A stretch of 64,000 bases of DNA from Lautropia mirabilis (lineage in GTDB: Bacteria > Pseudomonadota > Gammaproteobacteria > Burkholderiales > Burkholderiaceae_E), in NCBI RefSeq assembly GCF_900637555.1, contig NZ_LR134378.1:940001-1004000 (forward strand). The letters are read 5' to 3'. The number at the start of each line of letters is the position of its first letter. Position 1 is the stretch's first letter. The translations under genes and the position numbers were made by a program. The notes beneath the pieces were generated by a model. The model was not told the origin of the DNA and made no database searches. It saw nothing but the letters and a program-made list of their open reading frames with translations. Shown piece by piece: positions 6,520-43,340 of this stretch.

Positions 6520-6731
6520 TCGCGGTTTCCTTTCCGGGGGGAGGTGGCGGCATCCGTGCCTTGAGTGGCCTCGGAGTCTTCCTGGCGGGAGGGCATCGTC
6601 ACGGCCGGGGTGGCCTGCTCGATGACGGGTTCGGGCGGCAGATACAGGGGGCCCTTCTGGCCACAGCCGGCCAGCAGGCAGGCGCCGGCCAGCAGGAGGG
6701 CCGGCGGAGTGATTAAAATGGAAGCACGCAT
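6516..6731 (-). CDS. lptM: Small lipoprotein LptM (YifL family)
   Basis: This 71-residue lipoprotein has a signal peptide and the lipobox LAGC (Cys at about residue 23) followed at once by 'GQKGPLYLP', the family signature. LptM is known in E. coli to assist oxidative maturation and assembly of the LPS translocon LptDE at the outer membrane. The tail after about residue 35 is low complexity (E, Q, T, S, P) and poorly conserved in the family. It overlaps lysA by 4 bp, so the two are translationally coupled. Confidence 0.88.
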   Translation of the reverse strand: MRASILITPPALLLAGACLLAGCGQKGPLYLPPEPVIEQATPAVTMPSRQEDSEATQGTDAATSPRKGNRE

Positions 6732-6793
6732 GATTCATCCACGCCGGGCCTGACAATGGCGGGCCCGGTCACAACAGGGAACAGAACTCTAGC

Positions 6794-7138
6794 ATGAGCG
6801 GAAACAGCTTTTCGCAACGGGTGGACGTCGTCCTGGACGCTCTCACCGAAGGTATCGAGACGGCGGCCGAAGCGGCCGACATGGATCTGGAAGTGACCCG
6901 TGCCGGCAATGTCATCACCCTCGAATTCGAGGACCGGTCGCAGATGGTCATCAACAGCCACGAGGCGGCCGGTGAGGTCTGGGTGGCTTCCAAACGGGGC
7001 GGGTTCCACTTCCGGCCCGGCGAGCAGGGCTGGATCGACACCCGCAGCGGCCGCGAGCTGCTGGATCTGGTGGCCGACGAGATCGGTTTTCACGCCGGCC
7101 AGCCGATCGATCTGTCGGCCATCCGTTTCACGGACTGA
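6794..7138 (+). CDS. cyaY: Iron-sulfur assembly protein CyaY (bacterial frataxin)
   Basis: CyaY is a frataxin-fold protein that binds iron and regulates the IscS-IscU sulfur-transfer step. It has 114 residues, against about 105-110 in the family. An acidic N-terminal helix (D/E-rich, residues 10-35) and the conserved strand 'QMVINSHEAAGEVWVAS' followed by 'GGFHF' identify it. It is divergent from lptM-lysA across 62 bp, which must contain both promoters, and convergent with mrcA (11 bp between stops). Confidence 0.93.
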   Translation: MSGNSFSQRVDVVLDALTEGIETAAEAADMDLEVTRAGNVITLEFEDRSQMVINSHEAAGEVWVASKRGGFHFRPGEQGWIDTRSGRELLDLVADEIGFHAGQPIDLSAIRFTD

Positions 7139-7149
7139 CCGATCAACGC

Positions 7150-9570
7150 TCAGAAGATCTGGTCCTTGGTCTGCTGGGCGTCCTTCAGATCCTTCACGTC
7201 GGAGGACAGGCCGTCCTCCGCAATGCCCAGCGCGCGCTTCACGCCCGGACTGCTGGGCTGTGCCTCGTCCAGATAGTATTCGCCGTTGACCTGCACCACG
7301 CCGTGCGGCACGGGGCGCTCCTTCTGCGGCACCTCCGGCAGCACTTCCTTCAGGTAGTCGATCCAGATGGGCAGCGCCAGACCGCCACCGGTCTCGCGCT
7401 CGCCCAGCGAACGCGGCCGGTCGTAGCCCAGCCAGGCCACGCCCGCCACGCCCGTGGCATAGCCGGCAAACCACGCATCGCGTGAATCGTTGGTGGTACC
7501 GGTCTTGCCGGCCAGATCCTTGCGCTTCAGTTCCTTCGTCACGCGCGCCGCGGTGCCCGACTGCGCCACCGTCTTCAGCATGCTGTCCATCAGGAAGGCA
7601 TTGCGCGGGTCAATGATCAGCGCGTTCTCGTCGCCGGACTGCACCGGGTTGGCCTTGGCCACCTCGCGCCCGGTGGTGTCGGTGATGCGATCGATGAGAT
7701 AGGGCTCCAGCCGGTAGCCGCCGTTGGCGAAGGTGGCCATGCCGGTGGCAATCTGCATGGGCGTCACGCTGCCCGCACCCAGCGCCATGGTCAGGTAGGC
7801 CGGGTTGCGCTCGGGGCGGATGCCGAAGCGGCCCAGGTAGTCCTGCGCATAGTCCACACCGATATCCTGCAGGATCCGGATCGAGACCATGTTCTTCGAG
7901 CGCGCCAGCGCATTGCGCAGCGTCATCGGGCCGTCATAGCCGCCGCCATAGTTCTTCGGCTCCCAGAGCTGGTTGCCCGTCGTGGCCGGGTCCAGGATGA
8001 TGGGCGCATCGTTGACCACCGTGCTGGTCATGAAACCCTTTTCCAGCGCAGCGGAATAGATGAACGGCTTGAGCACCGAGCCCGGCTGGCGGATGGACTG
8101 CGTGGCGCGGTTGAACTTGCTGCGGCTGAAATCGTAGCCGCCCACCATCGCGCGGATCGCCCCGTCGTGCGTGTCGATGGTGATCATGGCCGCTTCCACC
8201 TCGGGGGCCTGGGTGATCTCCCAGCCATGCTGCCCTTCGGTGATGCGCACCACGGCACCCGGGCGCAGCTGGCGGTTCGCGGGCGCCTTCGGGTTCAGCC
8301 AGGCGTTCACGAAGGCCAGACCCTGACCGCTGATGTCGAAGCTGACGCCACGCCCGCGCGAGACCGTCACCGCCTGCGGCGTGACCTTGAGCACCACCGC
8401 CGACAGCAGCTTGCCCACATCGCCGGCCTGGGCCACGGCTTCCTCGATGCGCTCCTCGCGTTCCAGCTCATCGGCCGTCTTCAGGTCCACCATCGACTCC
8501 GGCCCGCGATAGCCCTGCTTGCGGTCATAGGCGAACACGGCGCGCTGAACCGCCGCATTGGCGGCCTGCTGGTCCTTGGCGCGGATCGTGGTGTAGACCT
8601 TCAGGCCGCCGGTGTAGGCGTCCTCCTTGAACTGGTCGGCCACCAGCGCCCGCGCCATTTCGGAGGCCCACTGCGCCTGCAGCGGGAAGGTGGGGCGGTC
8701 GGTGTGCAGCTTCAGCTCTTCATTCAGCGCCGCCTGGTATTCCGGCTCGGTGATGAAGCCCAGCGTGCGCATCCGGGACAGTACATAGCGCTGGCGCTGC
8801 TTGGCCCGCTCGGGGTTGGCAATGGGATTGTCGCGTGCCGGGGCCTTGGGCAGGCCGGCCAGCATGGCCATCTGGCCGATGGTCAGCTCGGACAGCGGCT
8901 TGCCGAAATACGTCTGGGCGGCCGTGGCAAAGCCGTACGAGCGCTGGCCCAGGAAGATCTGGTTGGCGTAGATCTCGAAGATCTGCGACTTGGAGAGCTG
9001 CTGCTCGATGCGCAGCGTGAGCAGCACCTCGTAGAACTTGCGCACGAAGCTGCGTTCGCGGCTCAGGAACGTGGTGCGGGCCAGCTGCATGGTGATGGTG
9101 CTGGCCCCCTGGCCGCGCCCGCCCGTCTTCACGTTGGCCAGGACGGCACGCGCCACCCCGAACAGGTCGATGCCGTGGTGGGTGAAGAAGTCATCGTCCT
9201 CGGCGGCCAGGATGGCCTGGCGCATCTTCTCGGGAAAACTGCTGTACGACACGACCGTGCGCTTTTCCGAGCCGTACTCGCCGATCAGCAGCCCGTCGGC
9301 CGAGAAGACCTGCATCGGCAGCTTGGGCTTGTAGTCGGTGAGCGAGGTGAGCGGCGGCAGCCGGCTGGAGGCCACCTCGTAGGCCACGATGCCCACCAGC
9401 GCCCCCGACACCACCAGCGTGCCACTCAGCGCCACGGTCCAGCCCAGAAAGCGCAGCACCGGGTGACGGCGTGGGGCCTGCGGGCGTCGACGGCCGGGTT
9501 GGCGCGCTCCGGCGCCGTTGCCGGAGGTTCTGCTGGAAGGAGATCGGGTCGTGGTGGCGGATGGCTTCAT
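7150..9570 (-). CDS. mrcA: Penicillin-binding protein 1A (bifunctional class A PBP)
   Basis: This inner-membrane enzyme polymerises and cross-links peptidoglycan. It has 806 residues from the ATG at 9570. Domains in order: a basic Pro/Arg-rich cytoplasmic tail (1-40), one transmembrane helix (about 42-65), a GT51 glycosyltransferase with 'EDDDFFTHHGID' and 'STITMQLARTTFL', an OB-like linker, then the transpeptidase with SXXK 'SVLK', SXN 'SKN' and KTG 'GKTGTT'. All catalytic motifs are intact. An upstream ATG at 9627 is in frame, but 9570 gives the usual short N-terminus. It faces away from the pil operon, the common arrangement mrcA / pilMNOPQ. Confidence 0.95.
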   Translation of the reverse strand: MKPSATTTRSPSSRTSGNGAGARQPGRRRPQAPRRHPVLRFLGWTVALSGTLVVSGALVGIVAYEVASSRLPPLTSLTDYKPKLPMQVFSADGLLIGEYGSEKRTVVSYSSFPEKMRQAILAAEDDDFFTHHGIDLFGVARAVLANVKTGGRGQGASTITMQLARTTFLSRERSFVRKFYEVLLTLRIEQQLSKSQIFEIYANQIFLGQRSYGFATAAQTYFGKPLSELTIGQMAMLAGLPKAPARDNPIANPERAKQRQRYVLSRMRTLGFITEPEYQAALNEELKLHTDRPTFPLQAQWASEMARALVADQFKEDAYTGGLKVYTTIRAKDQQAANAAVQRAVFAYDRKQGYRGPESMVDLKTADELEREERIEEAVAQAGDVGKLLSAVVLKVTPQAVTVSRGRGVSFDISGQGLAFVNAWLNPKAPANRQLRPGAVVRITEGQHGWEITQAPEVEAAMITIDTHDGAIRAMVGGYDFSRSKFNRATQSIRQPGSVLKPFIYSAALEKGFMTSTVVNDAPIILDPATTGNQLWEPKNYGGGYDGPMTLRNALARSKNMVSIRILQDIGVDYAQDYLGRFGIRPERNPAYLTMALGAGSVTPMQIATGMATFANGGYRLEPYLIDRITDTTGREVAKANPVQSGDENALIIDPRNAFLMDSMLKTVAQSGTAARVTKELKRKDLAGKTGTTNDSRDAWFAGYATGVAGVAWLGYDRPRSLGERETGGGLALPIWIDYLKEVLPEVPQKERPVPHGVVQVNGEYYLDEAQPSSPGVKRALGIAEDGLSSDVKDLKDAQQTKDQIF

Positions 9571-10227
9571 CGAGAGGGAGCGGGGGTCGGTGCCGGAAAG
9601 AGGCTGGCGGGCATGCAGGCCGGGCATCCATCGGAGATGCGGTGCGACGAGCGCCCTGTCAAGGCCCTGCCCGGCGGCGGCGAAGAAGATTGCCGGTCAA
9701 GCAGCCGGGAGATTCCCAACCCGACACTATAAAGGAAGCCTGCCGGGAGGTCATCCGGCCAGGCGCGCCACCGGTCGGAAGTTGCAACTCGCCACGTCTG
9801 GTCAGGGCCATCCTGCACGCCTGGATGGCATCGCCGGAACCGGCACGGACGGAGCGGCGGCAGGCCTGCATGAAGGGCTGTCCCATGGGGGTGTACATGC
9901 CGGATTCCGGGATCTGGCAGATGCCTTCAACGACCGAAAGAGTCGTCTGCACATGCCCGCAGCGCGGCAGCTGGGCCTTTCTCCGTGTCATCGATCACAC
10001 CGCGCGCAGTGTCCCGAATGACCGTTCACCACCCGAATTCGACTGTTCTTCCGGCATGAGCGACTAAAGGGTAACGAGCCTTGACCGGTGGTGTGGCGAG
10101 GGGGATGAAAACGACGAAAAAACTCTTAAAGTGAGCCCCTGTCTTTCAGGCGGTACATGGGGAATTGTAAGGGAAGTCGGTCCATCGACCGGTTTCGACG
10201 GGACTTTTTTCTAGATCGGGTGGTTTT
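9571..10227. other. Intergenic region between divergent mrcA and pilM
   Basis: These 657 bp carry no convincing gene: open frames on both strands show no recognisable domain or ribosome binding site. The region presumably holds the promoters of mrcA and of the pil operon. A small perfect dyad CGGTC-CATC-GACCG sits at 10178-10191 just before pilM. A/T content rises in the last 150 bp, as expected near a promoter. Confidence 0.5.
9726..9754 (-). promoter_or_regulatory. Putative sigma-70 promoter of mrcA
   Basis: On the minus strand, ATGACC (9754-9749) and TATAGT (9731-9726) are separated by 17 bp. The -10 lies 156 bp upstream of the mrcA start. It matches consensus at 4/6 and 5/6 positions. 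Confidence 0.3.
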
Positions 10228-11310
10228 GTGGGATTTGGCCTTCAAACATTGTTAGCGCGCGGACCAGCCCCGTTGATCGGGGTGGATTTCAGCGCGTCCA
10301 GCGTCAAAGTCGTCGAGCTTTCGCCTGGAAAACAGGCGCCGATGCGTCTGGAACGTTATGCCATCGAGCCGATCGAGCGGGGCGCCGTCGTTGACGGCAA
10401 CGTCGAACGGCATGAAGCGGTGGCCGATGCCCTGTTGCGCGCCCTGCGCAAGACAGGTTCGTCGACCAAGCAGGTTGCGATGGCACTGCCGTCATCCTCG
10501 GTCATCACCAAGCGGATCACGCTGCCGGCGGACCTGAAAGAGGACGACTACGAAGTGCAGGTTGAATCCGAGGCCAGCCAGTACATCCCGTTTGCCATCG
10601 ACGAGGTGAACCTGGATTTCCAGGTGCTGGGTCCTTCGGCCAACTCGGAAGACAGCGTGGACGTGCTGCTGGCAGCCTCGCGCAAGGAAAAGGTCGATGA
10701 CCGGGTGATGGTGGCCGAACTGGCCGGACTGAAACCCGTGATCATCGATGTCGAACCCTATGCGGCACGCATCTCCATCGACAGCATCATCAGCCAGCTG
10801 CCCGCTGGCGGTGAAGGCCTGATCCTGGCCGTGTTCGACATCGGTCAGACCGCCACGCGCCTGTCCGTCGTCTACAACGGCCAGACCATATTCGAGCGTG
10901 AGCAGCCGTTCGGCGGCAGCAAGCTCACGCAGGAAATCGTGCGTCTGTACGGGCTGACGGTCGAGGAAGCCGAGCTGAAGAAGCGCACCGGCGACCTGCC
11001 CGAAAACTACACGGCCGAACTGCTGCACCCCTTCGTGGAAGAAGGGGCCACCGAACTGGCACGCTCGCTTCAGTTCTTCTTCTCGTCGACGCCGTACGAG
11101 CGCGTTGACCGCATCTTCCTGGCTGGCGGTGCTGCCGTCACGCCGGGTCTGGCTGAAGCCGTGCTGCAGAAGACATCGGTCACGACCGAGATTCTCAGCC
11201 CGTTCCAGGGCATGGAGATCGGTGATTCGATTTCCGAGAAGCAGATGAATCTGGATGCCCCGGCACTCCTGGTGAGCTGCGGCCTGGCCATGAGGAGGTT
11301 TGACCAATGA
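10228..11310 (+). CDS. pilM: Type IV pilus inner-membrane platform protein PilM
   Basis: PilM is an actin-like (FtsA-fold) cytoplasmic ATP-binding protein that binds the N-terminus of PilN and links the alignment complex to the pilus motor. It has 360 residues and begins with GTG. The N-terminal phosphate-1-like motif 'PLIGVDFSASSVKVVEL' and the late 'RIFLAGGAAVTPGL' adenosine motif are present. It is the first gene of a tight operon; pilN starts 4 bp before its stop. Confidence 0.95.
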   Translation: MGFGLQTLLARGPAPLIGVDFSASSVKVVELSPGKQAPMRLERYAIEPIERGAVVDGNVERHEAVADALLRALRKTGSSTKQVAMALPSSSVITKRITLPADLKEDDYEVQVESEASQYIPFAIDEVNLDFQVLGPSANSEDSVDVLLAASRKEKVDDRVMVAELAGLKPVIIDVEPYAARISIDSIISQLPAGGEGLILAVFDIGQTATRLSVVYNGQTIFEREQPFGGSKLTQEIVRLYGLTVEEAELKKRTGDLPENYTAELLHPFVEEGATELARSLQFFFSSTPYERVDRIFLAGGAAVTPGLAEAVLQKTSVTTEILSPFQGMEIGDSISEKQMNLDAPALLVSCGLAMRRFDQ

Positions 11311-13113: not shown

Positions 13114-15383
13114 ACCAACGACCTGGGAACATAACGGCCATGCGCTTTCTCCAAACCTCCATTGCCGCAGCCCTTGTCGGGTTCGGCACCGTCGCTGCCA
13201 GCCCGGCGTGGGCCGTCAGCAACTCCATCGAATCGATCATCGGCGCCCAGCAGGGCAGCACCACGCAGGTGCGCATCCGCATGGGCATGCCGCTCACGGA
13301 AGTGCCGGCCAGCTTCAGCCTGGCCAATCCGCACCGCCTGGCGCTTGATTTCAAGGACACCGACAACCGCATCGGCCGCAGCCTGGTCGAGCTGACCGGT
13401 GGTGACGTCAAGAGCGTCAACGTGGTGCAGGGTGGCGAGCGCGCTCGCGTCGTGCTGAACATGACGCGCCCGATGCGCTTCAAGTCCGAGATCGAGGGCA
13501 ATGACCTGATCCTGTCGCTGGATCGCCAGGAAAGTGTCGAGGCCACGCCTGCCGCACGTGGCAGCCAGCTGCCCATGGTGGCACAGGCCAGCAAGGCGGA
13601 TGCCCGTGGTGCGGTTGGCCATGCGCATTCGCTCAAGGATATCGACTTCCGCCGCGGCAAGGATGGTGAAGGCCGCGTGGTCGTCAACCTGTCGGATGAT
13701 GGTGCAGGCGTCGATGTGCGTCAGCAGGGCAAGAGCCTGATCGTCGAATTCCAGGGTACGCGCCTGCCGGACAACCTGCGCCGTCAGCTGGATGTCGCCG
13801 ACTTCGGCACGCCCGTCAAGACCATCCGCAGCGTCCAGCAGAATGGCAACGCCCGCCTGATCATCGAGCCGCAGGGTCTGTGGGAGCACAGCGCCTACCA
13901 GAGCGACTCGCAGTTCGTGGTGGAAGTGAAGCCCGTCAAGGAAGATCCGAACCGCCTCACGCAGGGCAGCCGCCCCGGCTACCGCGGTGAGCGCCTGTCG
14001 CTGAACTTCCAGAACGTCGACGTGCGTGCACTGCTGCAGGTCATTGCCGACTTCACCAACCTGAACATCGTCACCAGCGACACCGTGCAGGGCAAGCTCA
14101 CGCTGCGCCTGAAGGATGTGCCCTGGGACCAGGCGCTGGACATCATCATGCAGTCGCGTGGTCTGGACATGCGCAAGAACGGCAACGTCGTGATGATCGC
14201 GCCGCGTGAAGAGCTGGCCACCAAGGAAAAGCTGGCGCTGGAATCGAAGCAGCAGATCTCCGAGATCGAGCCGCTGCGCACCGAGACCTTCACGCTGAAC
14301 TACCAGACCGCCGAGAAGCTGCGCGAGATGCTCACCGACGAGAAGCAGTCGGTGCTGTCCAAGCGCGGCAGTGCGCTGGCCGACATCCGCTCGAACAAGC
14401 TGTTCGTGATGGACACACCGTCGCGTCTGGATGAAGTCCGCCAGATGATTGCGCAGATCGACATCCCGGTCCGCCAGGTGCTGATCGAGGCCCGCATCGT
14501 CGAGGCTGATGATCGCTTCTCGCGCAACCTGGGCACCAAGCTGGGCTACTACGACCGCCGCAGCACGATCTACCGTACCGCGGCCCGTACCAACCCGGTC
14601 ACGGGCGAGACGGAAGCAGTCAACGTTCCGGTCCATGGTCCGGGCTCCTCGCTGGGCAACCGCATCGGCTACGGCACCATCTCGGGCAACCTGTCCGGTG
14701 CGGCCGACCTGTCCTCGCAGCTGGGTGGCGAGAACGGTACCGGTGAAGTCCTGGGTCTGGGCAAGGCCACGGCGCTGGACAACACCAACTTCTTCAGCTT
14801 CCCGGCAGGCGGCATCAACGGTACCAACCCGGCTTCGCTGGCCATCAGCCTCTTCGGTTCCAGCCTGTCGCGCTTCATCAACCTGGAGCTGTCGGCCCTG
14901 GAAGCCGACCAGCGCGGCAAGGTGGTCTCCAGCCCGCGCGTGCTGACTTCCAGCCAGCGTCCGGCGGTGATCGAGCAGGGTACCGAGCTGCCGTACCAGT
15001 CGGCCACCTCCAGCGGCGCCACCTCGGTGTCGTTCCGCAAGGCCAACCTGCGGCTGGAAGTCACCCCGCAGATCACGCCTGAAGGCAACGTCATCCTGGA
15101 CGTGGACGTCAGCCGTGACGCGGTGGGTCAGCTGACCAACGCCGGCTACGCCATCGACACCCGCCACGTGAAGACCCAGGTGCTGGTGGAAGACGGCGGC
15201 ACGGTGGTGATCGGCGGCATCTACGAGCAGTTCGAGCGCAACCGGACCGACAAGGTGCCTCTGCTGGGCGACATCCCGGTCCTGGGCTACCTGTTCCGCA
15301 GCACCACGCGGACCAACGACCGGACCGAGCTGCTGGTGTTCCTCACCCCGCGCATCGTCACCGATACGCTGGCCCAGCGCTGA
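13110..15383 (+). CDS. pilQ: Type IV pilus secretin PilQ
   Basis: PilQ is the outer-membrane secretin through which type IV pili extrude. It has 757 residues: a signal peptide (cleavage after 'ASPAWA'), two AMIN domains that bind peptidoglycan (about 40-130 and 165-260), an STN/N0 domain near residue 300 ('LSLNFQNVDVRALLQVIAD'), an N1 domain and the C-terminal secretin core with 'VLTSSQRPAVIEQGTELPY' and 'VPLLGDIPVLGYLFRS'. The start at 13110 overlaps the pilP stop. The ATG at 13140 would give a shorter, more typical signal peptide and may be the real start. Terminated by the hairpin at 15402. Confidence 0.95.
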   Translation: MNQRPGNITAMRFLQTSIAAALVGFGTVAASPAWAVSNSIESIIGAQQGSTTQVRIRMGMPLTEVPASFSLANPHRLALDFKDTDNRIGRSLVELTGGDVKSVNVVQGGERARVVLNMTRPMRFKSEIEGNDLILSLDRQESVEATPAARGSQLPMVAQASKADARGAVGHAHSLKDIDFRRGKDGEGRVVVNLSDDGAGVDVRQQGKSLIVEFQGTRLPDNLRRQLDVADFGTPVKTIRSVQQNGNARLIIEPQGLWEHSAYQSDSQFVVEVKPVKEDPNRLTQGSRPGYRGERLSLNFQNVDVRALLQVIADFTNLNIVTSDTVQGKLTLRLKDVPWDQALDIIMQSRGLDMRKNGNVVMIAPREELATKEKLALESKQQISEIEPLRTETFTLNYQTAEKLREMLTDEKQSVLSKRGSALADIRSNKLFVMDTPSRLDEVRQMIAQIDIPVRQVLIEARIVEADDRFSRNLGTKLGYYDRRSTIYRTAARTNPVTGETEAVNVPVHGPGSSLGNRIGYGTISGNLSGAADLSSQLGGENGTGEVLGLGKATALDNTNFFSFPAGGINGTNPASLAISLFGSSLSRFINLELSALEADQRGKVVSSPRVLTSSQRPAVIEQGTELPYQSATSSGATSVSFRKANLRLEVTPQITPEGNVILDVDVSRDAVGQLTNAGYAIDTRHVKTQVLVEDGGTVVIGGIYEQFERNRTDKVPLLGDIPVLGYLFRSTTRTNDRTELLVFLTPRIVTDTLAQR

Positions 15384-31409: not shown

Positions 31410-32591
31410 ATGTCCAAATCCCTGTTCGCTTCCCGCTCGATCCTGGCCCTGCCGCTGCTGGTCTCCCTGCTGAGCCTCACCGGTGTAGCCGATGTGCGGG
31501 CGGCTGATTCTGCGTTTGTACGGCCGGCCGGTACGACGAAGACCGCCGCTGGCCAGACCTCTTACACGCACTACCCGCTCACGCTGGAGAACTGCGGCCA
31601 GAAGGTTACCTATCGCAAGGCTCCGGAGCGCGCCGTCGCGCTGGGTCAGAACAGTGCCGAGATCCTTTTGCTGCTGGGGCTGCAGGATCGCATGGCAGGC
31701 ACCGCCTTCTGGCCCAGCAAAGTACTGCCGCAGGTGGCCGACGCCAATGCCAAGGTGAAGCTTCTGACGGTGGAGATGCCCCGATTCGAGTCCATTCTGG
31801 CCGAGGAGCCCGACTTCGTGGCGGCTGCACTGCCTAGCCTGATGGGGGCCAACAGCAAGGTGGCCAAGCGCGAAGACTTCCAGAAGATGGATGTGCCCAC
31901 CTACCTGGCACCTGGTACCTGCCTGGCCAGCGGAACGGCCAAGGATGCCTACGGCAGCCGTGACCAGCTCTGGAATCCCGAGCTTCTCTACCGGGAGATT
32001 GATGAGCTGTCGCGCATCTTCGACGTGCCTGATCGCGGTCAGGCTCTGATCGCCGACCTGAAGGCGCGTGAAGCGAAAGTGCGCGCCCTGGCCGCAAAAG
32101 GGTTGGTGGCAGGCAAGACCAGGCCGTCCTTCCTCTTCTGGTTCTCCAGTCCGTCACCGTCCGCTGATGCCTATGTAGCCGGCAAGAATGGTGCGTCGGG
32201 CTACATTGCCGATCTTCTGGGGGGTACGAATGCCGTCACCAACGAGACCGAGTGGCCGACGATGAGCTGGGAAAGCATCATCGCCACTCATCCGGACGTG
32301 ATCGTGGTGGCCAGCCTGGATCGCAACCGCTGGGAGCTGGACAAGCCTCAGGCCAAGATCGCGTTCCTCACGTCCGATACTGCTACGCGTGAAATGCCGG
32401 CAGTGAAGAGCGGGCGACTGATCGTGATGGATGGTTCGGCCATGAATCCGTCGGTGCGCACCATCTACGGGGCCGAGCAGGTGGCCAGGGCGCTGCAGGA
32501 TCAGGCGGCTTCACAGGCAAGCGGTGCATCGTCGAAGGTACCCGGTTCGAAGAAATCCGGCGCTTCTTCGGGCAAGTCTGAAGCCCGTTGA
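31410..32591 (+). CDS. ABC transporter periplasmic binding protein, iron-siderophore/cobalamin type
   Basis: This is the substrate-capturing component of an importer. The 393-residue protein has a signal peptide (hydrophobic 'ILALPLLVSLLSLTG', cleavage after VRA) and a class III binding fold: 'APERAVALGQNSAEILLLLG', 'FESILAEEPDFVAAALPS' and 'MSWESIIATHPDVIVVASLD'. The C-terminal 25 residues are a Ser/Gly/Lys-rich tail not usual in the family. A TTG at 31347 is also in frame but would bury the signal peptide. The next gene starts in the stop codon (TGATG). Metal-chelate uptake is inferred; heme, siderophore and cobalamin cannot be told apart here. Confidence 0.85.
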   Translation: MSKSLFASRSILALPLLVSLLSLTGVADVRAADSAFVRPAGTTKTAAGQTSYTHYPLTLENCGQKVTYRKAPERAVALGQNSAEILLLLGLQDRMAGTAFWPSKVLPQVADANAKVKLLTVEMPRFESILAEEPDFVAAALPSLMGANSKVAKREDFQKMDVPTYLAPGTCLASGTAKDAYGSRDQLWNPELLYREIDELSRIFDVPDRGQALIADLKAREAKVRALAAKGLVAGKTRPSFLFWFSSPSPSADAYVAGKNGASGYIADLLGGTNAVTNETEWPTMSWESIIATHPDVIVVASLDRNRWELDKPQAKIAFLTSDTATREMPAVKSGRLIVMDGSAMNPSVRTIYGAEQVARALQDQAASQASGASSKVPGSKKSGASSGKSEAR

Positions 32592-33610
32592 TGCGCACGC
32601 TGGCCCTATGGAGCACGCTGCTGGTTGCGGCGCTGCTCGTCATCGCCCTGGTCGTTGGTGTGAGCGTCGGCATCGGAGATCTGCCCATTCCACTGTCGAC
32701 GACCGGACATGCCATCACCAACCGGCTGGGCTGGACGCAGGTCGACATCAGTCGCATCCATGAGACGGTGATCTGGGACTATCGACTTTCCCGCGCACTG
32801 GCCGCCACCTTCTGTGGCGCCGGGCTGGCGCTTTCCGGAGCGGTGATGCAGGCGTTGCTGCGCAATCCGCTTGCTGAACCCTACGTGCTGGGCATATCCG
32901 CAGGCGCATCCACCGGCGCGGTGCTCATTGTCATCCTGGGTATGGGTGTGGGTGTCGTTGGCCTGTCGATGGGCGCCTTCGCCGGCGCATTCGCCGCATT
33001 CTTCTTTGTGGCGCTCCTGTCCAACGCCATGCGCAGCGGTCCGGATCGCACCATCCTGGCCGGTGTGGCTGCCTCGCAGCTTTTCAACGCCGTGACTGCC
33101 TACATCGTTACCACGGCTGCCAACGCCCAGCAGGCACGCGACGTGATGTTCTGGTTGCTGGGAAGCTTCGGCGGCGTACGCTGGCCGGAGTTTGCTTTGC
33201 TGGCGCTGGTCATCTCGGTGGGCCTGGTGGGGTGCCTGATGTATGCGCGTGTGCTGGATGCCTTCGCCTTCGGTGATGAAGCGGCATCGGCACTGGGCGT
33301 CAATGTCACCGCTGCACGGCTGGTGCTGTTCGCGCTCACTGCACTGATGACGGCCACCATCGTCAGCATGGTGGGGTCCATCGGCTTCGTGGGCCTGGTG
33401 GTGCCACACGCCGCACGCTACGTGGTGGGGCCATTGCATGCGCGATTGCTGCCAGCCTGCGCGCTGGCCGGCGCCGTCTTCATGGTGCTGGCCGACATCG
33501 GCTCGCGCGTTCTGGTGGATCAACAGGTGCTGCCGGTGGGGGTCGTCACGGCGCTCGTGGGCGTGCCGTTCTTCTCGGTCGTGCTTTACCGAATGCAGCG
33601 TGCTGCATGA
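32591..33610 (+). CDS. FecCD-type ABC transporter permease
   Basis: This is the membrane channel of a siderophore/heme/B12 importer, probably working as a homodimer. It has 339 residues with about 10 transmembrane helices. The family blocks 'WDYRLSRALAATFCGAGLAL', 'QALLRNPLAEPYVLGISAGA' and 'GSIGFVGLVVPHAARYVVG' are all present. The start ATG shares one base with the upstream stop. The following ATPase gene starts 4 bp before its stop. Confidence 0.93.
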   Translation: MRTLALWSTLLVAALLVIALVVGVSVGIGDLPIPLSTTGHAITNRLGWTQVDISRIHETVIWDYRLSRALAATFCGAGLALSGAVMQALLRNPLAEPYVLGISAGASTGAVLIVILGMGVGVVGLSMGAFAGAFAAFFFVALLSNAMRSGPDRTILAGVAASQLFNAVTAYIVTTAANAQQARDVMFWLLGSFGGVRWPEFALLALVISVGLVGCLMYARVLDAFAFGDEAASALGVNVTAARLVLFALTALMTATIVSMVGSIGFVGLVVPHAARYVVGPLHARLLPACALAGAVFMVLADIGSRVLVDQQVLPVGVVTALVGVPFFSVVLYRMQRAA

Positions 33611-34488
33611 ATCCTCATGAATCCATGAACCCGCCGATGACTGAAGCCTTTGAAGAAAGCACAGACACCGCAAGAGGACAGACTCACGCGGTCAGCATCA
33701 CGGCCGAGAACCTGGTCTGGAAGATCGGCCGCAAGACGGTGGTCGATGGTGTGTCCTTCCATGTTCCGCAGGGGCAGACGCTGGGTCTGCTGGGGCCGAA
33801 CGGTTCCGGCAAGACGTCCTTGCTGCGCCTCCTGGCAGGGCTGAGGAAACCTCTTGCCGGCCGTGTTCTGCTGGATGGACAGGATATTCATCGCATGCCG
33901 CGCCGACGGCTGGCGCAGCGCGTGGCTTTCGTGGAGCAACATGCCAGCACCACGGCCAATCTGCGTGTCATCGACGTGGTGAAACTGGGGCGATTTCCGC
34001 ACCGCAGCTTTCTGTCGGGCTGGACACAGGCGGATGAAAACGCTGTCGAACGTGCCATGGCACATACTGGCATCGACCACAAACGTCTGGACGGCTGGCA
34101 GAGCATGTCTGGTGGCGAACGTCAGCGTGCCCACATCGCACGCGCCCTGGCGCAGGAACCGAAGGAACTCTTCCTGGACGAGCCTACCAACCATCTGGAC
34201 ATCCAGCATCAGGTGAGCCTGATGCGTCTGGTGGCGGCATTGCCCATCACCAGCATCATTGCGCTGCATGATCTGAACCATGCCGCCATGTTCTGCGATG
34301 CGCTGATCGTGATGCAGCAGGGCAAGATCGTCGCGCATGGCACCCCGACCGACGTGCTGACCGAAGCGCTTCTACGCGACGTGTTCCGTGTCGAAGCCCG
34401 CGTGATGGCTTCACCCTTTCACGCAGGGCCGCATATCCACATCCTGCGGGAGGCGGTGCGCGGCATCCCTTCGTCGGAGAATGGCTGA
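33607..34488 (+). CDS. ABC transporter ATP-binding protein, FepC/BtuD type
   Basis: This ATPase drives the importer encoded by the two preceding genes. It has 293 residues: about 40 residues of extra N-terminus, then 'LLGPNGSGKTSLLRLLAG' (Walker A), a Q-loop near 'VAFVEQHAST', the signature 'MSGGERQRAHIARALAQ', Walker B 'LFLDEPTNHLDIQHQ' and the switch His in 'ALHDLNHAA'. In-frame ATGs at 33625 and 33637 could be the real start. Its stop is 7 bp from the stop of the convergent lipoprotein gene at 34496. Confidence 0.93.
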   Translation: MNPHESMNPPMTEAFEESTDTARGQTHAVSITAENLVWKIGRKTVVDGVSFHVPQGQTLGLLGPNGSGKTSLLRLLAGLRKPLAGRVLLDGQDIHRMPRRRLAQRVAFVEQHASTTANLRVIDVVKLGRFPHRSFLSGWTQADENAVERAMAHTGIDHKRLDGWQSMSGGERQRAHIARALAQEPKELFLDEPTNHLDIQHQVSLMRLVAALPITSIIALHDLNHAAMFCDALIVMQQGKIVAHGTPTDVLTEALLRDVFRVEARVMASPFHAGPHIHILREAVRGIPSSENG

Positions 34489-34495
34489 GGCAGCC

Positions 34496-35554
34496 TTACT
34501 TCGCGTCGGTACCCGCGTAGGCCTTTGCGGAGTAGTGGATCAGCCCGGATTCGCCGGCATAGGGGGCACGGTCTTCCACCACGTACTGGTCCACGAAGTT
34601 CAGCTTGTCACCGCGTTTCCAGTTCTGGGGCACTGACCACGCCGTGCAATGCAGGCGGCGAACGTGGGTGGTATTGCCGTTCCAGCACAGCTTGGCAACG
34701 CCCTCGTTGCCCTTCAGCAGCATCAGCTGGTCGTTGTGGCCGGCCGCATCGGCCCACTGAACCAGCGTGCCATAGGGCACTTCCGATGTCAGCTTGGCCG
34801 AGAAGGGCTTGTCCGTGGAGAGGGCCGATTCCACGGGAGCAGGCACGTTGTCGACGCGTCCACCGCCCGGCTTCGCCGGATCGAACCTGGCCGAAACCTG
34901 GGTCTGTGCGCCCACGCTGAAGCCGTCAGCCGTCACTTCCAGCGGGACCTTGGCCGTCCAGTAGTTGAAGCGGCGCTGCGTCATGCTGGTGTTGTTGTAG
35001 TAATACGGCGTGCTGTATTCGTTGATGGTGTGCTTGCCGGCGGCAGCAGGCTGGTAGGCCGTATGGGTGCTGGAGCATGATGCATCGAACATCCAGCTGC
35101 TCGGCTGCGTCGGCGCATCCGGCCGTCTGACATAGTTGCTGGGTTCCAGAATGACATCCGTCTTGATCTCCGGATACTGGTCCGAGACTGCCTTGTCGGC
35201 ACGGGGGCCATCCAGTCCGGAGGCCAGAACGGCCATGGCGCAGGCCTTCTGATCCAGCATGGTCAGCAGCACGTCGCCGCGCACGCTGTCGTTGGAAATG
35301 GGCGCCGAGGCCGGTGTGCCTTCCCGAGGCTGGCTGGCCTGGGTGGCAGCGGCTGCAGCGGGATCGCGGGTGACGGCGCTCTCACTGGCCGCAGGCTGCA
35401 CATCCTTCGTGGCCAGTGCGCTAGCGTTTTCCGTGCCCGGCAGGGACTTGGTCGCGGTGTTGCTGTCCGCCGAATCGGAGCTGCCACCGCAGGCAGCCAG
35501 GGCGGTCAACAGTGCGGCGGCCGTCAGGGACAGACGAAGATCAGGTCGGTTCAT
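34496..35554 (-). CDS. Lipoprotein paralog 1 of a four-gene family, unknown function
   Basis: The 352-residue product has a lipoprotein signal peptide with lipobox LAAC (Cys22), then a disordered Ser/Ala/Thr-rich linker to about residue 85. The family domain opens with 'SVRGDVLLTMLDQKAC'. Near the end is the family C-terminal block: 'QLMLLKGNEGVAKLCWN', 'VRRLHCTAWSVPQNWKRG', 'VDQYVVEDRAPYAGESGL'. Four cysteines outside the lipobox are shared by all four paralogs (in DQxxC, a middle Cys, KLCW and LHC), suggesting two disulfides. It is the most diverged of the four (V-R-R-L-H, VEDRAPY). I do not recognise the family. It is convergent with the ABC importer. Confidence 0.8.
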   Translation of the reverse strand: MNRPDLRLSLTAAALLTALAACGGSSDSADSNTATKSLPGTENASALATKDVQPAASESAVTRDPAAAAATQASQPREGTPASAPISNDSVRGDVLLTMLDQKACAMAVLASGLDGPRADKAVSDQYPEIKTDVILEPSNYVRRPDAPTQPSSWMFDASCSSTHTAYQPAAAGKHTINEYSTPYYYNNTSMTQRRFNYWTAKVPLEVTADGFSVGAQTQVSARFDPAKPGGGRVDNVPAPVESALSTDKPFSAKLTSEVPYGTLVQWADAAGHNDQLMLLKGNEGVAKLCWNGNTTHVRRLHCTAWSVPQNWKRGDKLNFVDQYVVEDRAPYAGESGLIHYSAKAYAGTDAK

Positions 35555-35772
35555 GGGAGTCTCCCGGCAAATAGCCTAGATGCGTTGGTGGAACCTGATG
35601 CCGTGGCGGCGTGGCGCATGCCGGGCAGATGAATACCGTCTGGTGTCCCAGTCGGGTCGCCGGGCAGGCTCAACAGTCAAACGTCCTGAAAAGGGCTTCA
35701 GGCGCGCCGACGGCTCTTGCATGGTGGAAGGAGATGCAGCCCGAAATATGACACTCGGCCGAAGGCTGAAAA

Positions 35773-35839
35773 TTCCGGAAACGATTCGTTAAAACAACCC
35801 GCATCCCATGATTCATGGGGTTGCGAATCGTGTCCGGAA
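35773..35839. repeat. 67-bp nested inverted repeat between lipoprotein genes 1 and 2
   Basis: The outer arms are 35773-35788 and 35824-35839 (16 bp, one mismatch: TTCCGGAA-ACGATTCG against CGAATCGT-GTCCGGAA). Nested inside are CAAC/GTTG (35795-35798 with 35820-35823) and CCCATGA-T-TCATGGG (35805-35819). It could fold as one long hairpin in RNA or DNA. It lies about 220 bp upstream of lipoprotein 1 and 60-120 bp past the terminator of lipoprotein 2. Confidence 0.7.
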
Positions 35840-35896
35840 GTGCATGGTGCCGTTCTGAACGGGGACCATGCAGAGGGGAATGCGGTGCATGAATGC

Positions 35897-35924
35897 AAAA
35901 ACGCCCCGGCATTCGGGGCGTTTT
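35897..35924 (-). terminator. Intrinsic terminator of lipoprotein 2
   Basis: AAAACGCCCC and GGGGCGTTTT form a perfect 10-bp stem with a 7-nt loop, flanked by A's on one side and T's on the other, 20 bp past the stop of the minus-strand gene. It reads as a terminator on the minus strand. Confidence 0.85.
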
Positions 35925-35944
35925 GGGGAGGATCGCATCAAGCC

Positions 35945-37081
35945 TCAGGGCTGCTGCTGCACCGCCGTGCGGAAATAGCGCACACCGCTCTCGTTCGGGT
36001 AGACGCTGCGGTCATCGACGATGTACTGGTCGACTTCCTTCAGCTCCTGGCCGCGCTTCCAGTTGGCGGGTACCTGCCACACCTGGCATTGCAGTCGCTT
36101 CACGATCTGCATGTCGATGTTCCAGCACAGCTTGGCCTGATTGCTCTGGCCGGGCAGCAGCATCAGCTGCACCGTGCTCTGGCCCGAGCGCCATTGCTTG
36201 AGCACATTGGTGAATGCCACCGTGTCGGACAGCTTGAAGGCGAAGGCGCCGTCGGCCTTGAGCGTGGCATCCTCATTCTCGGGCTTCAGGGTGGCCTGCA
36301 CGTTGTCCGGGTAGGGATTCCGGTCACGCTGTGCGCTGGCCGGCATGTTCGCCGAGAGTGAGGCGCCGCTGGCCGTGACGGTGAGCTGCGGCGTGAGTGC
36401 GATGTTGTTGAAGCCCTTGTTCAGGTTCACCGGGCGGGTCCGGCTGAAGGCGTAGGAGGCCACGTTCAGCACGTAGGTGCCCGGCTTGGCCGGCTGGTAC
36501 AGGAAGGCGTTGCAGGGCCGGCTCAGGAAGATGGCGCCATTGGGCGGCCACTTGAAATCCGGGTTCTCCTTGTAGGTGCTCGGATCCAGGCTGAACTGGA
36601 TCTTGGCATCCGACACCTCGTTCTTTGAACGGGGGTAGGCTGGGCCGTCCACGGCACTGGTCTCGGACGGATCCTGGTTGCAGGGCACCTGGTCCAGCAT
36701 CGTCATCAGCACGTCGCCACGAACGCCGGTCGAGGAGATGAGCGCAGCAGCCGTGCTGGCAGAACCATTGTTCGTGGTGCTGTTGGCGCCCCTTGCACTT
36801 GCCGACCCGGTCGAAGCGCTCGTGTTCGTGCCGGTCTCGGCGACCGTATCCGTCGTGCCTGCGCTGCCGGTCGTGGTACCCGTGTCTGTCTGGCTTGCTG
36901 CGCCGGTTGATGTCGTCGAATCTGCAGTCGTGCCCGTGGTGCTGGCAACGGGGGCTCGCGGGCTGGAGGAAACGGTCCGCAGGCTCGAATCACTGCCATC
37001 GCTGCCACTGCCGCAGGCAGCCAGCAGCAGGGAGAGTGCGGCGGCCGTCAGCGGGGCCCCAAGTCGATATGTCTGCATCAT
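35945..37081 (-). CDS. Lipoprotein paralog 2 of a four-gene family, unknown function
   Basis: The 378-residue product has a signal peptide with lipobox LAAC (Cys23) and a long Thr/Ser/Ala/Gly-rich linker to about residue 115. The family domain starts 'GVRGDVLMTMLDQVPC'. The C-terminal block is highly conserved: 'QLMLLPGQSNQAKLCWN', 'VKRLQCQVWQVPANWKRG', 'VDQYIVDDRSVYPNESGV'. The four shared cysteines are present. An AGGAGG lies 3 bases before the first ATG (37081) and 6 before the next (37078); either may be used. Upstream is an ATTTGTAAC motif also found before paralog 4. Confidence 0.82.
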   Translation of the reverse strand: MMQTYRLGAPLTAAALSLLLAACGSGSDGSDSSLRTVSSSPRAPVASTTGTTADSTTSTGAASQTDTGTTTGSAGTTDTVAETGTNTSASTGSASARGANSTTNNGSASTAAALISSTGVRGDVLMTMLDQVPCNQDPSETSAVDGPAYPRSKNEVSDAKIQFSLDPSTYKENPDFKWPPNGAIFLSRPCNAFLYQPAKPGTYVLNVASYAFSRTRPVNLNKGFNNIALTPQLTVTASGASLSANMPASAQRDRNPYPDNVQATLKPENEDATLKADGAFAFKLSDTVAFTNVLKQWRSGQSTVQLMLLPGQSNQAKLCWNIDMQIVKRLQCQVWQVPANWKRGQELKEVDQYIVDDRSVYPNESGVRYFRTAVQQQP

Positions 37082-37314
37082 GAACCTCCTGTCGTCGAAC
37101 ACGGCAACGGCGATCGGGACGTACTGCGTCCCGGCGACGCCGTCCTCAAGGACAGGATACGGGGAACACTGGCTGCAGATCGAGAGCGATGCGTCTGCTT
37201 GGGTAAAAGCGCATCAAATCGTCAGCGACTGGAAATGACTGTTACAAATTTAAGGGCTCTTGTGGCGTGTTCGCAGCAATGAATTCACGTAGGGGGCAGG
37301 CCATGAATGCAGGA

Positions 37315-37345
37315 ACCGCCTGCCGGCAAAGGCCGGGCAGGCGGT
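37315..37345 (-). terminator. Hairpin past lipoprotein 3
   Basis: ACCGCCTGCC (37315-37324) pairs with GGCAGGCGGT (37336-37345), extended by GGC/GCC with one bulge. It lies about 40 bp past the stop of paralog 3 on the minus strand. No strong T-tract follows. Confidence 0.5.
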
Positions 37346-37386
37346 CCGAGGCCTGCAGGAAGCAGGCAGGGGCGGGGCTGACCTGA

Positions 37387-38514
37387 TCAGTTGTTGCCGG
37401 CACGCCAGTAGGACGTGCCTTTCTCGCCCTCGTAGGTGCTGCGATCGTCCGCCACGTATTGCTGCACTTTCATCAGCGTGCCCTGGCGGAAGTTGGTGGG
37501 CACGTTCCAGACGGTGCAGTGCAGACGTTTCACGTGCTGCAGGTGGGTGTTCCAGCACAGCTTGGCCTGACCGGGCTGCTCACCGCGCACCAGCATGATC
37601 TGGTAGGAAAGATTGCCTTCCTTCCATTCCTTCAGCATGCCGAAGGGCACCAGGGCGCCGTTGCGGATGGTCAGGTCACTGTCGGCGGTCCATTCATAGC
37701 GCTGCACGTCCGGTTCCTGGGCTTCCGGATGGGCCTCGGCATAAGCGCGGCCCGGATCCTGCTTCTCGGCCAGGTGCACGACATTGCCGATGCTGAACTC
37801 GTCGTTGCTGACCCGCAGCGACAGCCGAGCGCCGAAGTAATGGAAGCCGCGTTTCACGGAGGCCGGCGTGAAGCGATAGACCGGGTTGCTGTCCTGGTGA
37901 ATCACATAGGTGGTACCGGGACGGGCCGGCGCGTACATCTGGTCGTCGCTGCAGATGGCATTGGGCGCATGCGACGGATTGCCGTCGACACCAGGGCGGC
38001 GCACGTAGTTGCTGCCCGTCTCGTGGTTGCCGGGTTGCGACAGCGTGGTGCCGAAGACCGTTTCGGGCGTGTCGTCCTGGGCTTCAGGCACCGGGTTCCC
38101 ATCAGGAGCAAACGACAGCACACCGAAGTTGTCGCACGGCCGCTGGTCCAGCATGCTCAGCAGCACTTCACCACGCACGCCCTGGGGCGACAGCGCGGCC
38201 ACGGCGCTGGGGGCGGGGGGCTGGTTTCCGTCGGGGCTGGCGGCCTGGTTGCGGCCCGCACGGTCATCGTCGGGCGTGACGGTCGGCGTCGCGGGGCTGG
38301 CAGTCGGTGCGACCGGCGTGGATGTCGCATTGTTGCTGCTGCCCGGATTGGGGGCGCTGACGGCGCCGGCGATGGGGTCGAGGTGCGTCGGAGCTTGCGG
38401 GCTGGCCGACACGGCCTTGCCTTCCGTACCGCCACCACCACCGCCTCCGCAGGCGGTCAGCAGCAGCGCCAGCGCAGCGGCCGTCATCGGAACACGGAAC
38501 CTGTTCTTCATCAT
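37387..38514 (-). CDS. Lipoprotein paralog 3 of a four-gene family, unknown function
   Basis: The 375-residue product has lipobox LTAC (Cys22), seven glycines after it, and a Pro/Ala/Ser/Asp-rich linker to about residue 105. The family domain begins 'GVRGEVLLSMLDQRPC'. The C-terminal block reads 'QIMLVRGEQPGQAKLCWN', 'VKRLHCTVWNVPTNFRQG', 'VQQYVADDRSTYEGEKGT'. All four family cysteines are kept. The middle region is rich in Tyr, Phe and His ('VIHQDSNPVYRF') and differs strongly from its paralogs. Two ATGs stand in tandem at the start, as in paralog 2. Function unknown; probably an outer-membrane-anchored or periplasmic protein. Confidence 0.82.
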   Translation of the reverse strand: MMKNRFRVPMTAAALALLLTACGGGGGGGTEGKAVSASPQAPTHLDPIAGAVSAPNPGSSNNATSTPVAPTASPATPTVTPDDDRAGRNQAASPDGNQPPAPSAVAALSPQGVRGEVLLSMLDQRPCDNFGVLSFAPDGNPVPEAQDDTPETVFGTTLSQPGNHETGSNYVRRPGVDGNPSHAPNAICSDDQMYAPARPGTTYVIHQDSNPVYRFTPASVKRGFHYFGARLSLRVSNDEFSIGNVVHLAEKQDPGRAYAEAHPEAQEPDVQRYEWTADSDLTIRNGALVPFGMLKEWKEGNLSYQIMLVRGEQPGQAKLCWNTHLQHVKRLHCTVWNVPTNFRQGTLMKVQQYVADDRSTYEGEKGTSYWRAGNN

Positions 38515-38744
38515 GAATGTTCTCCCGGGCTGTAAGGGGGGCGTATCCAGGAGTCAGGGGCATTCTGGCCATCCATGCTCTCGGGCGCCGAGGTGATGCC
38601 CGGCAGCATAGAGACAGACCGCAGAACAGGGGGGCCTGCCGCGGCGGCAACCGATGCGACGGCGGCAGACTGCGGCTGGACGGTGGGTGGGTGTGGTGGC
38701 GGGCCCACGTGACTGTTGTGGTATGTGGACCCGCTCAGGCCGGA

Positions 38745-40025
38745 TCAATCACGGCCGCTTGTGCGCCAGTAAAGCAGGCCGGACTCTCCGGGATAGGTCG
38801 AGCGGTCATCCACGATGTACTGGCCGTCATCCTTGAGTTCCAGGCCCCGTTTCCAGTTCTCGGGCACGGTCCATACGGTGCAATGCAGTCGCTTCACGTA
38901 CTTCATGTAGGTGTCGAAGCACAGTTTGGCCTGCCGCGCATGGCTTCCGGGCAGCAGCATCATGTGAGTCGTCATGGTGTAGGAATCGCCTCCAGGGGAT
39001 TCGTCCTTCCATGTTGTCAGCACGCCGATCGGCACGAAGCTGTTCAATCCGATGGTCTTGCTGCTTGGGGATTGGCCGAAGTTATATTCGGTGTCTTTGG
39101 GCTGACCATCCGGATTCGCATCCCTGAAGGTCTTGCCCCAGTAGGCGTTGGCTGTTGCTTCGATGCGGCTTCCAATGATGATGGCGTCCTGGGAAATGGC
39201 AACCGGGATGCTGGTGTGCATCATGCTGAAGCCCCGAGGGCGTGAGTCCGGTGAGGTGAATCGCCCGTAGATGGAGCTGTTCAGACGATAGGTGTACACG
39301 CCGGTGGCAGCCGGGGTGTAGATGAGGACGGGCGGGCAGAGTGCGCCCGGAACGGGAGAGTGTTCGTAGGTGCTTCGGTGTTCGGGGTTGATGAGGTAAT
39401 TCTCCGCCGAGAGCGAGTGGCTGATCCATGGGGGAGGGAAGTCTCCGTCGTTTTCCAGGCTGGGACCATCGTGGGATGCACTCAAGGTTCCAAAGGGCTT
39501 GCAGGATCGCTGATCCAGCATGGTCAGCAGCACGTCACCGCGCACGCCCTGCGCCGAAACAAGGGGTACCGGTTCCGTGGTGGGGGTGCCGCTTGCCGTG
39601 CTATCCGCCGCGGGAGGCGTGAGTGCAGGATTGGCTGGTTGCGGTTGCGGTTGCGGTTGCGGTTGCGGTTGCGGTTGCGGTTGCGGTTGCGGCTGAGGCT
39701 GAGGCTGAGGCTGAGGCTGAGGCTGAGGCTGAGGCTGAGCGGCCGGAGGTGTCACCTCGTTGTCGACCGGTGGGGTGGCCGTGTTGGGGTTTCCACGTGC
39801 GCGGTTATCGGAAAGCGCGGGAGACGGCGTATCAGGGCTGGATGCTGGCGGCGTGCTGTCGGTGATCCCACTCCCCGAGTTCGCCGGCGCGACCGGATTC
39901 ACAGGCGCGACAGGGCTGGCCGATACGGCCTTGTCGTTGTTGTCATTGCCACCGCCGCCACCGCAGGCGGCCAGAAGGAGGGCAAGGGCGGCAACGCTGC
40001 ATGACAGGTGTGCAGGGGTCTTCAT
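38745..40025 (-). CDS. Lipoprotein paralog 4 of a four-gene family, with a Gln-Pro repeat
   Basis: The 426-residue product has lipobox LAAC (Cys21) followed by a low-complexity linker that contains 17 uninterrupted Gln-Pro dipeptides (residues about 96-130). The family domain starts 'GVRGDVLLTMLDQRSC' and ends with 'MMLLPGSHARQAKLCFD', 'VKRLHCTVWTVPENWKRG', 'GQYIVDDRSTYPGESGL'. The four shared cysteines are present. The start at 40025 places the signal peptide at the N-terminus; the frame is open 25 codons further upstream. The Gln-Pro segment would make a stiff extended spacer between the lipid anchor and the domain, a design used by wall-spanning proteins such as TonB (analogy only). Confidence 0.83.
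   Translation of the reverse strand: MKTPAHLSCSVAALALLLAACGGGGGNDNNDKAVSASPVAPVNPVAPANSGSGITDSTPPASSPDTPSPALSDNRARGNPNTATPPVDNEVTPPAAQPQPQPQPQPQPQPQPQPQPQPQPQPQPQPQPQPANPALTPPAADSTASGTPTTEPVPLVSAQGVRGDVLLTMLDQRSCKPFGTLSASHDGPSLENDGDFPPPWISHSLSAENYLINPEHRSTYEHSPVPGALCPPVLIYTPAATGVYTYRLNSSIYGRFTSPDSRPRGFSMMHTSIPVAISQDAIIIGSRIEATANAYWGKTFRDANPDGQPKDTEYNFGQSPSSKTIGLNSFVPIGVLTTWKDESPGGDSYTMTTHMMLLPGSHARQAKLCFDTYMKYVKRLHCTVWTVPENWKRGLELKDDGQYIVDDRSTYPGESGLLYWRTSGRD
39637..39738. repeat. 17-copy hexanucleotide repeat encoding Gln-Pro
   Basis: On the plus strand there are nine perfect GGTTGC units (39637-39690) followed by eight perfect GGCTGA units (39691-39738). On the coding minus strand both read as Gln-Pro. 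Copy-number change would alter linker length without breaking the frame. Two different units side by side point to two separate expansions. Confidence 0.95.
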
Positions 40026-40149
40026 GGATGGCGCTTCTCGAAATGTTGTTCCGTGGCGACGTAATGTCGCGGAATGTCGTGGCGCCAAGCTTAGACCCAA
40101 AGCCTGGGGGTGCGATGCCTCGTAGGGCGGGCATCGTCTGTTGCGCGTC

Positions 40150-40270: not shown

Positions 40271-43216
<2,946 letters not shown>

Positions 43217-43340
43217 GCGGTCGGGATGGGTGTCCTGCGGATCCCGTAACGAGGCGAACCTGACACTATACCCAATTGATCGGGGGGCCGCGCAGGGCTG
43301 CCGTTGTACGGAACACGGCATGGCGGATGCTGGTCAGCGG

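Follow-up and report, generated by a model that had tools for sequence, protein, structure and literature searches.

Among described systems, those closest to the genes analyzed here are the neisserial lipoproteins NHBA and fHbp and the Slam-dependent surface lipoproteins (TbpB-like). NHBA, as it is presented in PMC7857515, is resembled in plan by the stalk and stapled head of the proteins reported below. According to PMC5449769, predicted Slam-dependent lipoproteins have in common a C-terminal eight-stranded TbpB-like barrel. Their N-terminal lipobox signal is present here, in the four genes of the window and in 18 of the 22 family genes of the genome that carries it. The paralogous families of Borrelia are likewise lineage-specific sets of diverged surface lipoproteins, a kind of repertoire; they are likened to the present family by description and not by sequence, OspA being only a weak partial match in the structural comparisons. 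Family 54 of these Borrelia outer-surface lipoproteins appears as a title in the reference list of PMC7857515.

The lipoprotein array and its relatives

The window, i.e., the whole analyzed stretch of 64,000 nucleotides from Lautropia mirabilis, contains an array of four lipoprotein genes (34496-40025) located between an EitABC-like importer and uvrA. All four are on the minus strand: gene 1 (34496..35554, 352 aa, core 34532-35305), gene 2 (35945..37081, core 35969-36745), gene 3 (37387..38514, 375 aa, core 37402-38199) and gene 4 (38745..40025, 426 aa, core 38763-39566). The likely start of gene 2 is the ATG near 37081, a longer frame opening with GTG at 37102; the longer frame of gene 4 starts with TTG at 40100. 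The uvrA gene, identified by its UvrA domains in Pfam, is also on the minus strand (40271..43216, start chosen by codon score, the longest frame ending at 43321). On the plus strand, the three genes of the FecCD-type ABC importer (31413-32591, 32588-33610 and 33607-34488) converge with gene 1, from which they are separated by the predicted gap of only 7 bp (34489-34495). This importer resembles the siderophore importer EitABC (485.5 bits for EitA and 402.1 bits for EitC, both below the curated cut-offs of 640 and 485), which is a different system from the lipoproteins. Elsewhere in the window, a GspD-related secretin that does not reach the GspD cut-off (13140-15383, 184.6 bits over part of the profile) is preceded by four short genes, a layout that we take to be a pilMNOPQ-like cluster.

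The original prediction of four tandem paralogous lipoproteins with a common plan was confirmed. Each encodes a signal peptide, a lipobox followed by Gly (LAAC, LAAC, LTAC and LAAC in genes 1 to 4, called in all four by pattern and not by a dedicated signal-peptide predictor), a low-complexity linker or stalk (61, 89, 83 and 132 aa) and a core some 260 residues long. When the four were compared in pairs with BLASTP, identity was 33-39% over 256-297 residues, with E values of 1e-37 to 1e-51, a similarity far beyond chance, and the full-length identity of genes 2 to 4 to gene 1 is 30-36%. The four cysteines said to be common to all proteins outside the lipobox are in register in the four cores. 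The conserved motifs announced for the core are present, but a little looser than claimed, with VRRLHC in gene 1, VKRLQC in gene 2, FRQG instead of WKRG in gene 3 and LCF in gene 4. In gene 4, two adjoining hexanucleotide repeat arrays (39637..39739, minus strand, 9.3 copies of GGTTGC and 8.2 of GGCTGA) encode a Pro-Gln repeat of the stalk; slippage in their copy number would alter stalk length while keeping the frame. The search for promoters and terminators stayed at chance level (2 compared to 1.4 expected and 6 compared to 7.0 expected).

As had been anticipated, the core corresponds to no family of the libraries searched. It had no match above cut-off in Pfam and NCBIfam (both searched with the four window proteins and 10 divergent members or relatives, Pfam also with 19 cores), PHROGs (19 cores), PADLOC (four window proteins) or PDB sequences; the match to a known Pfam family that would have contradicted the original prediction was specifically looked for there. 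Weaker library matches correspond to the signal peptide, to the stalk or to chance. SslE matched the stalk of L126, a locus of a distant relative, at 5.7e-6 (24 bits for a cut-off of 3000), and LptM (NF047847) reached at best 17.6 bits for a curated cut-off of 27.7, over the signal peptide only. Among the titles listed by the literature search, none deals with such a family in Lautropia. Judged by these comparisons, the family is absent from the protein libraries searched.

This work also revealed that the family is much larger than the four genes first noticed. The profile of the four proteins matched 30 stretches of their own genome (G000) at E 0.01, including fragments and signal peptides. 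After collection of the loci and iteration of the core profile, this genome was found to encode 22 family genes and 26 domains: the four of the window, five clustered at 2.018-2.026 Mb and 13 others, including one pair at 1.85 Mb and one at 2.68 Mb. Two domains are present in each of four genes (L079, L083 and both genes of L085), and the first domain of L083 is devoid of cysteine. Eight of the nine Lautropia genomes have 8 to 34 domain matches, the high counts being lower bounds since scored candidates were limited to 38, and the ninth (G005) has two weak ones. All eight public loci found by the family search belong to Lautropia. Among 74 genomes of the taxonomic family, distant relatives occur in two other genera, at one to five per genome (five stretches in G011 and one in G015, whose matches to the broad profile arise by construction). 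Two of these proteins, L106 and L130, are taken as true relatives because they keep the plan of lipobox and stalk, and their core has four cysteines and no more, with unchanged order and context; a further locus, L126 from G011, comprises three diverged members in tandem, with additional cysteines at the C-terminus. In a sample of 399 genomes drawn from the larger order, only its four Lautropia matched the broad profile A7 at E 0.001, and since at most seven candidates were scored per genome, distant single copies may be missed.

Several candidates from outside the genus were discarded. The weak matches of the first search (six loci in five genomes) correspond to a lipoprotein signal and low complexity only, and the marginal matches at the order level (three genomes, E 7.5e-4 to 0.007) were not regained with profile A7 at E 0.001. 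Matches at E 0.01 in 41 of the 74 genomes of the taxonomic family mostly cover the signal and stalk portions of the query sequence, and few reach the core. Overall, according to these profile searches, the family is concentrated in the genus Lautropia.

Genomic context and divergence

Family genes are located downstream of uvrA and on its strand in the seven genomes whose stretch was read, these stretches having been picked around family matches (G005 and G008 are outside this set). The recurrence of the array beside uvrA answers part of the comparison of neighbors called for originally. The number of genes varies: four in G000, five in G001, two in G002, three in each of G004, G006 and G007, and at least five in G003, where the array meets an assembly gap and a contig end. 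The array adjoins uvrA in six of the seven genomes, an amino-acid permease gene intervening in G003. Other genes are found within arrays, namely the importer in G003 and a DUF29 gene in G004. The arrays of G006 and G007 each harbor an unrelated lipoprotein-like gene (L094 7453-8175 and L095 7787-8506, 65% identical), for which no match to Pfam nor to the family profile was found.

The other part of this comparison showed an inconstant importer, which adjoins the array in G000 and G001 and is inside it in G003 (three of seven genomes). In the latter genome (L071, 8106-11012), the EitABC genes are on the strand of the array, compared to their convergent order in G000 and G001. A close EitC homologue exists in four of the nine genomes of the genus. 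In G004, the importer is carried by a different contig, and the part of it that was read has no family genes; EitC was not found at E 1e-80 or better in G002, G005, G006, G007 and G008. Among these genomes without a close EitC, G002, G006 and G007 have an array and G008 has ten family matches. The importer is a neighbor and not a constant partner of the array.

The neighbors of the other copies in the same genome (20 scanned with Pfam) have no functional theme in common. They include genes that we take, from their Pfam matches, to be of the rsgA, secF, pdxH, clpA and isocitrate dehydrogenase types, as well as HbpS-like, HipA-like and DctP genes and a GNA1162-like lipoprotein gene. The HbpS-like (haem-related) gene is at the 2.02-Mb cluster, and the other 19 neighbors show no metal-uptake theme. 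At L088 (5543-7260), the HipA-like gene directly follows one paralogue and is preceded by a short frame, with which it presumably forms a HipBA-like pair. A Fur-box scan with a crude pattern of little power (0.11 chance matches expected) gave no site. The link to iron or metal uptake suggested originally is thus unsupported by neighborhoods across genomes, and by the weak test of a Fur-like site.

In the tree, both G001 and G002 contain orthologues of genes 2 and 3; gene 1 clusters with three array genes of G001, and gene 4 is without clear orthologue. Across the stretches read, identity to the window is 82-90% for uvrA and about 29-57% for the lipoproteins. The core dN of genes 2 and 3 (G000 compared to G001 or G002) is 0.26-0.38, that of gene 1 and its G001 counterpart reaches 0.53, and those of uvrA and of an MFS gene are 0.06-0.08 and 0.10-0.14; for the same genome pairs, lipoprotein dN is 3.2-6.4 times that of uvrA. 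The dN/dS ratios (Nei-Gojobori), which are rough because dS is high (up to 2.4), are 0.11-0.48 for the cores and 0.05-0.21 for uvrA. The middle regions do differ strongly, as noticed at the outset, but their diversification under selection is not shown by such ratios: the cores change fast under constraint, without gene-wide positive selection. The longest exact DNA matches among 30 four-cysteine domains (to which this comparison was confined) revealed no recent exchange between paralogues, the maximum being 27 nt for the 40 pairs from the same genome (median 14) and 35 nt for the 395 pairs from different genomes (median 12).

Core domain, cysteines and probable envelope location

The 53 aligned domains (A4) contain four cysteines (n = 30, one of which needed a few columns of alignment slack), two (n = 22) or none (n = 1), never an odd number. 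Two-cysteine domains keep only the last two, and no domain has any other cysteine. We propose two disulfides because cysteines are lost as pairs, a pattern in the alignment that suggests such bonds. In the midpoint-rooted tree of the family, a branch with support of 100/97 separates the four-cysteine type from the rest, and all the uvrA-side genes placed in the tree are of this type. Its conserved positions are the first 20 and the last 60, with a variable region between them.

AlphaFold2 was run twice on one set of 19 sequences, each time with another member placed first, and gave a pLDDT of 91.1 and a pTM of 0.89 for the core of gene 2, and 90.7 and 0.90 for a second member. The order of elements is similar in both models, with a short helix near the N-terminus and then 18 or 19 strands (counting strands of three or more residues). 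The core is thus confidently modeled as a mostly-beta domain. C208 and C221 (model numbering) are on adjacent strands of one hairpin (204-212 and 217-225), and the disulfides would be C208-C221 and C23-C79. The fold search of the models against PDB and BFVD gave no match above background. Its weak matches are largely meandering barrels (FABP, DUF3598, CpeT, the C-terminal barrel of fHbp, OspA), and we therefore say at most that the domain is barrel-like. No sequence relation to the calycin-type barrels (FABP, DUF3598, CpeT) was found, and the structural alignments, with an rmsd of about 4.5, leave close to half of the domain uncovered.

The envelope lipoprotein plan is supported across the genome. 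All the 18 genes with a lipobox carry Gly at +2, and the lipobox is missing from the four other copies. Linkers range from 44 to 409 aa. At L078, the stalks of two genes (6255-8510 and 8807-10258) are very long (409 and 220 aa), Ala/Lys/Glu-rich and coiled-coil-like, and replace the Pro/Thr-rich kind. The +2 rule for Lol sorting comes from enteric bacteria. Since Gly is found in 18 of 18 members, Lol would sort these proteins to the outer membrane, and they may be exposed at the surface. Slam (PF04575), required by Slam-dependent lipoproteins, had no match in G000; as a control, 41 of 150 genomes of the order matched at an E of at most 0.001, 39 of them above the cut-off, and the 14 named controls gave no match. 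The congener G002 has a Slam match at 9.9e-7. The genome of the window encodes a GspD secretin that scores above its cut-off and could provide a way to the surface.

Possible roles of the family

We tentatively favor, at slightly less than an even chance, lipoproteins of the outer membrane or the cell surface whose barrel-like binding heads have diversified, with an exposure and ligands that would follow from the features above. The four genes would be the uvrA-side array of a Lautropia-centered multigene lipoprotein family. Their products would be exported by Sec and would receive their lipid at the lipobox cysteine; as the +2 residue is Gly and not Asp, Lol would send them to the outer membrane. 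There, a flexible Pro/Ala/Ser/Thr/Gln-rich stalk would project a compact, mostly-beta, barrel-like head, stapled by the hairpin disulfide C208-C221 and, in the four-cysteine subfamily, by a second one, C23-C79. The conserved N-terminal helix and C-terminal strands may form a constant scaffold and the variable middle may carry specificity, so that each paralogue would recognize its own ligand, at the cell surface or further out, candidates being host salivary or mucosal glycoproteins or partner cells. Ligand binding by the diversified middle is thus a putative function. Duplication would be the source of the copies, which would turn over downstream of uvrA, with others scattered elsewhere. The absence of a recognized Slam, dN/dS below 1, the lack of visible recent exchange between paralogues, the four of 22 copies devoid of lipobox and the 20 scanned neighbors without common theme all argue against such binding heads.

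These proteins could instead face the periplasm and protect the envelope, as inhibitors of lytic enzymes (lysozyme- or protease-inhibitor-like) or as toxin immunity proteins, multiplied into arrays that keep pace with numerous attackers. The tandem arrangement of the paralogues, their strong divergence and the dispersal of copies among housekeeping genes agree with orphan immunity arrays, copies without lipobox are consistent with this role, and small disulfide-stapled beta domains are common among periplasmic inhibitors. However, the only toxin-type gene among the 20 neighbors is the HipA-like kinase gene beside L088, and HipA acts inside the cell; furthermore, a stalk as long as 409 aa would be atypical of an immunity protein and PADLOC gave no match to the four window proteins, which makes this role rather unlikely. 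The same variable repertoire at a constant site, with its long stalks and rapid divergence, would also suit diversified surface lipoproteins that shield the cell by masking phage or bacteriocin receptors. Here too, neither PHROGs (19 cores) nor PADLOC (four window proteins) gave a match and, the HipA-like gene aside, no defense-type gene was recognized with Pfam in the 20 neighbors, so that we consider shielding quite improbable.

The earlier suggestion that the array is the outer receptor of the adjoining siderophore-type importer draws on their convergent adjacency in G000 and G001, on the importer inside the array of G003 and on the HbpS-like neighbor of the 2.02-Mb cluster. It is now very improbable, given the importer on another contig in G004, the five genomes of the genus in which EitC was not found and the lack of a Fur-like site, the pattern used being crude and of little power. 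We give equally little credence to RGD-type adhesins, in which the Arg-Gly-Asp of the V-R-G-D motif would bind integrins. RGD is indeed present in the N-terminal motif of 24 of the 30 four-cysteine domains compared to four of the 22 two-cysteine ones (some members carry RGE), but the modeled tripeptide lies at a strand-to-helix junction (mean pLDDT of the blocks, 94 and 97) and not in a free loop, and the whole surrounding helix is conserved, which points to a structural role. The enrichment of RGD in four-cysteine domains is therefore probably structural.

Lautropia is a common, little-studied oral commensal. A broader proposal, which we regard as doubtful, is that of an undescribed, perhaps new beta-rich fold used in a one-genus repertoire of 20 to 35 stalked, disulfide-stapled heads with constant ends and a variable middle, whose number changes beside uvrA and elsewhere, and which may serve as a recognition or antigen-variation system on the surface of this human oral commensal. 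The confident model and the paired cysteines offer a direct route to structure and ligand. If these lipoproteins are the main surface-displayed binding proteins, they would help to set adhesion targets, what host antibodies see and the differences between species.
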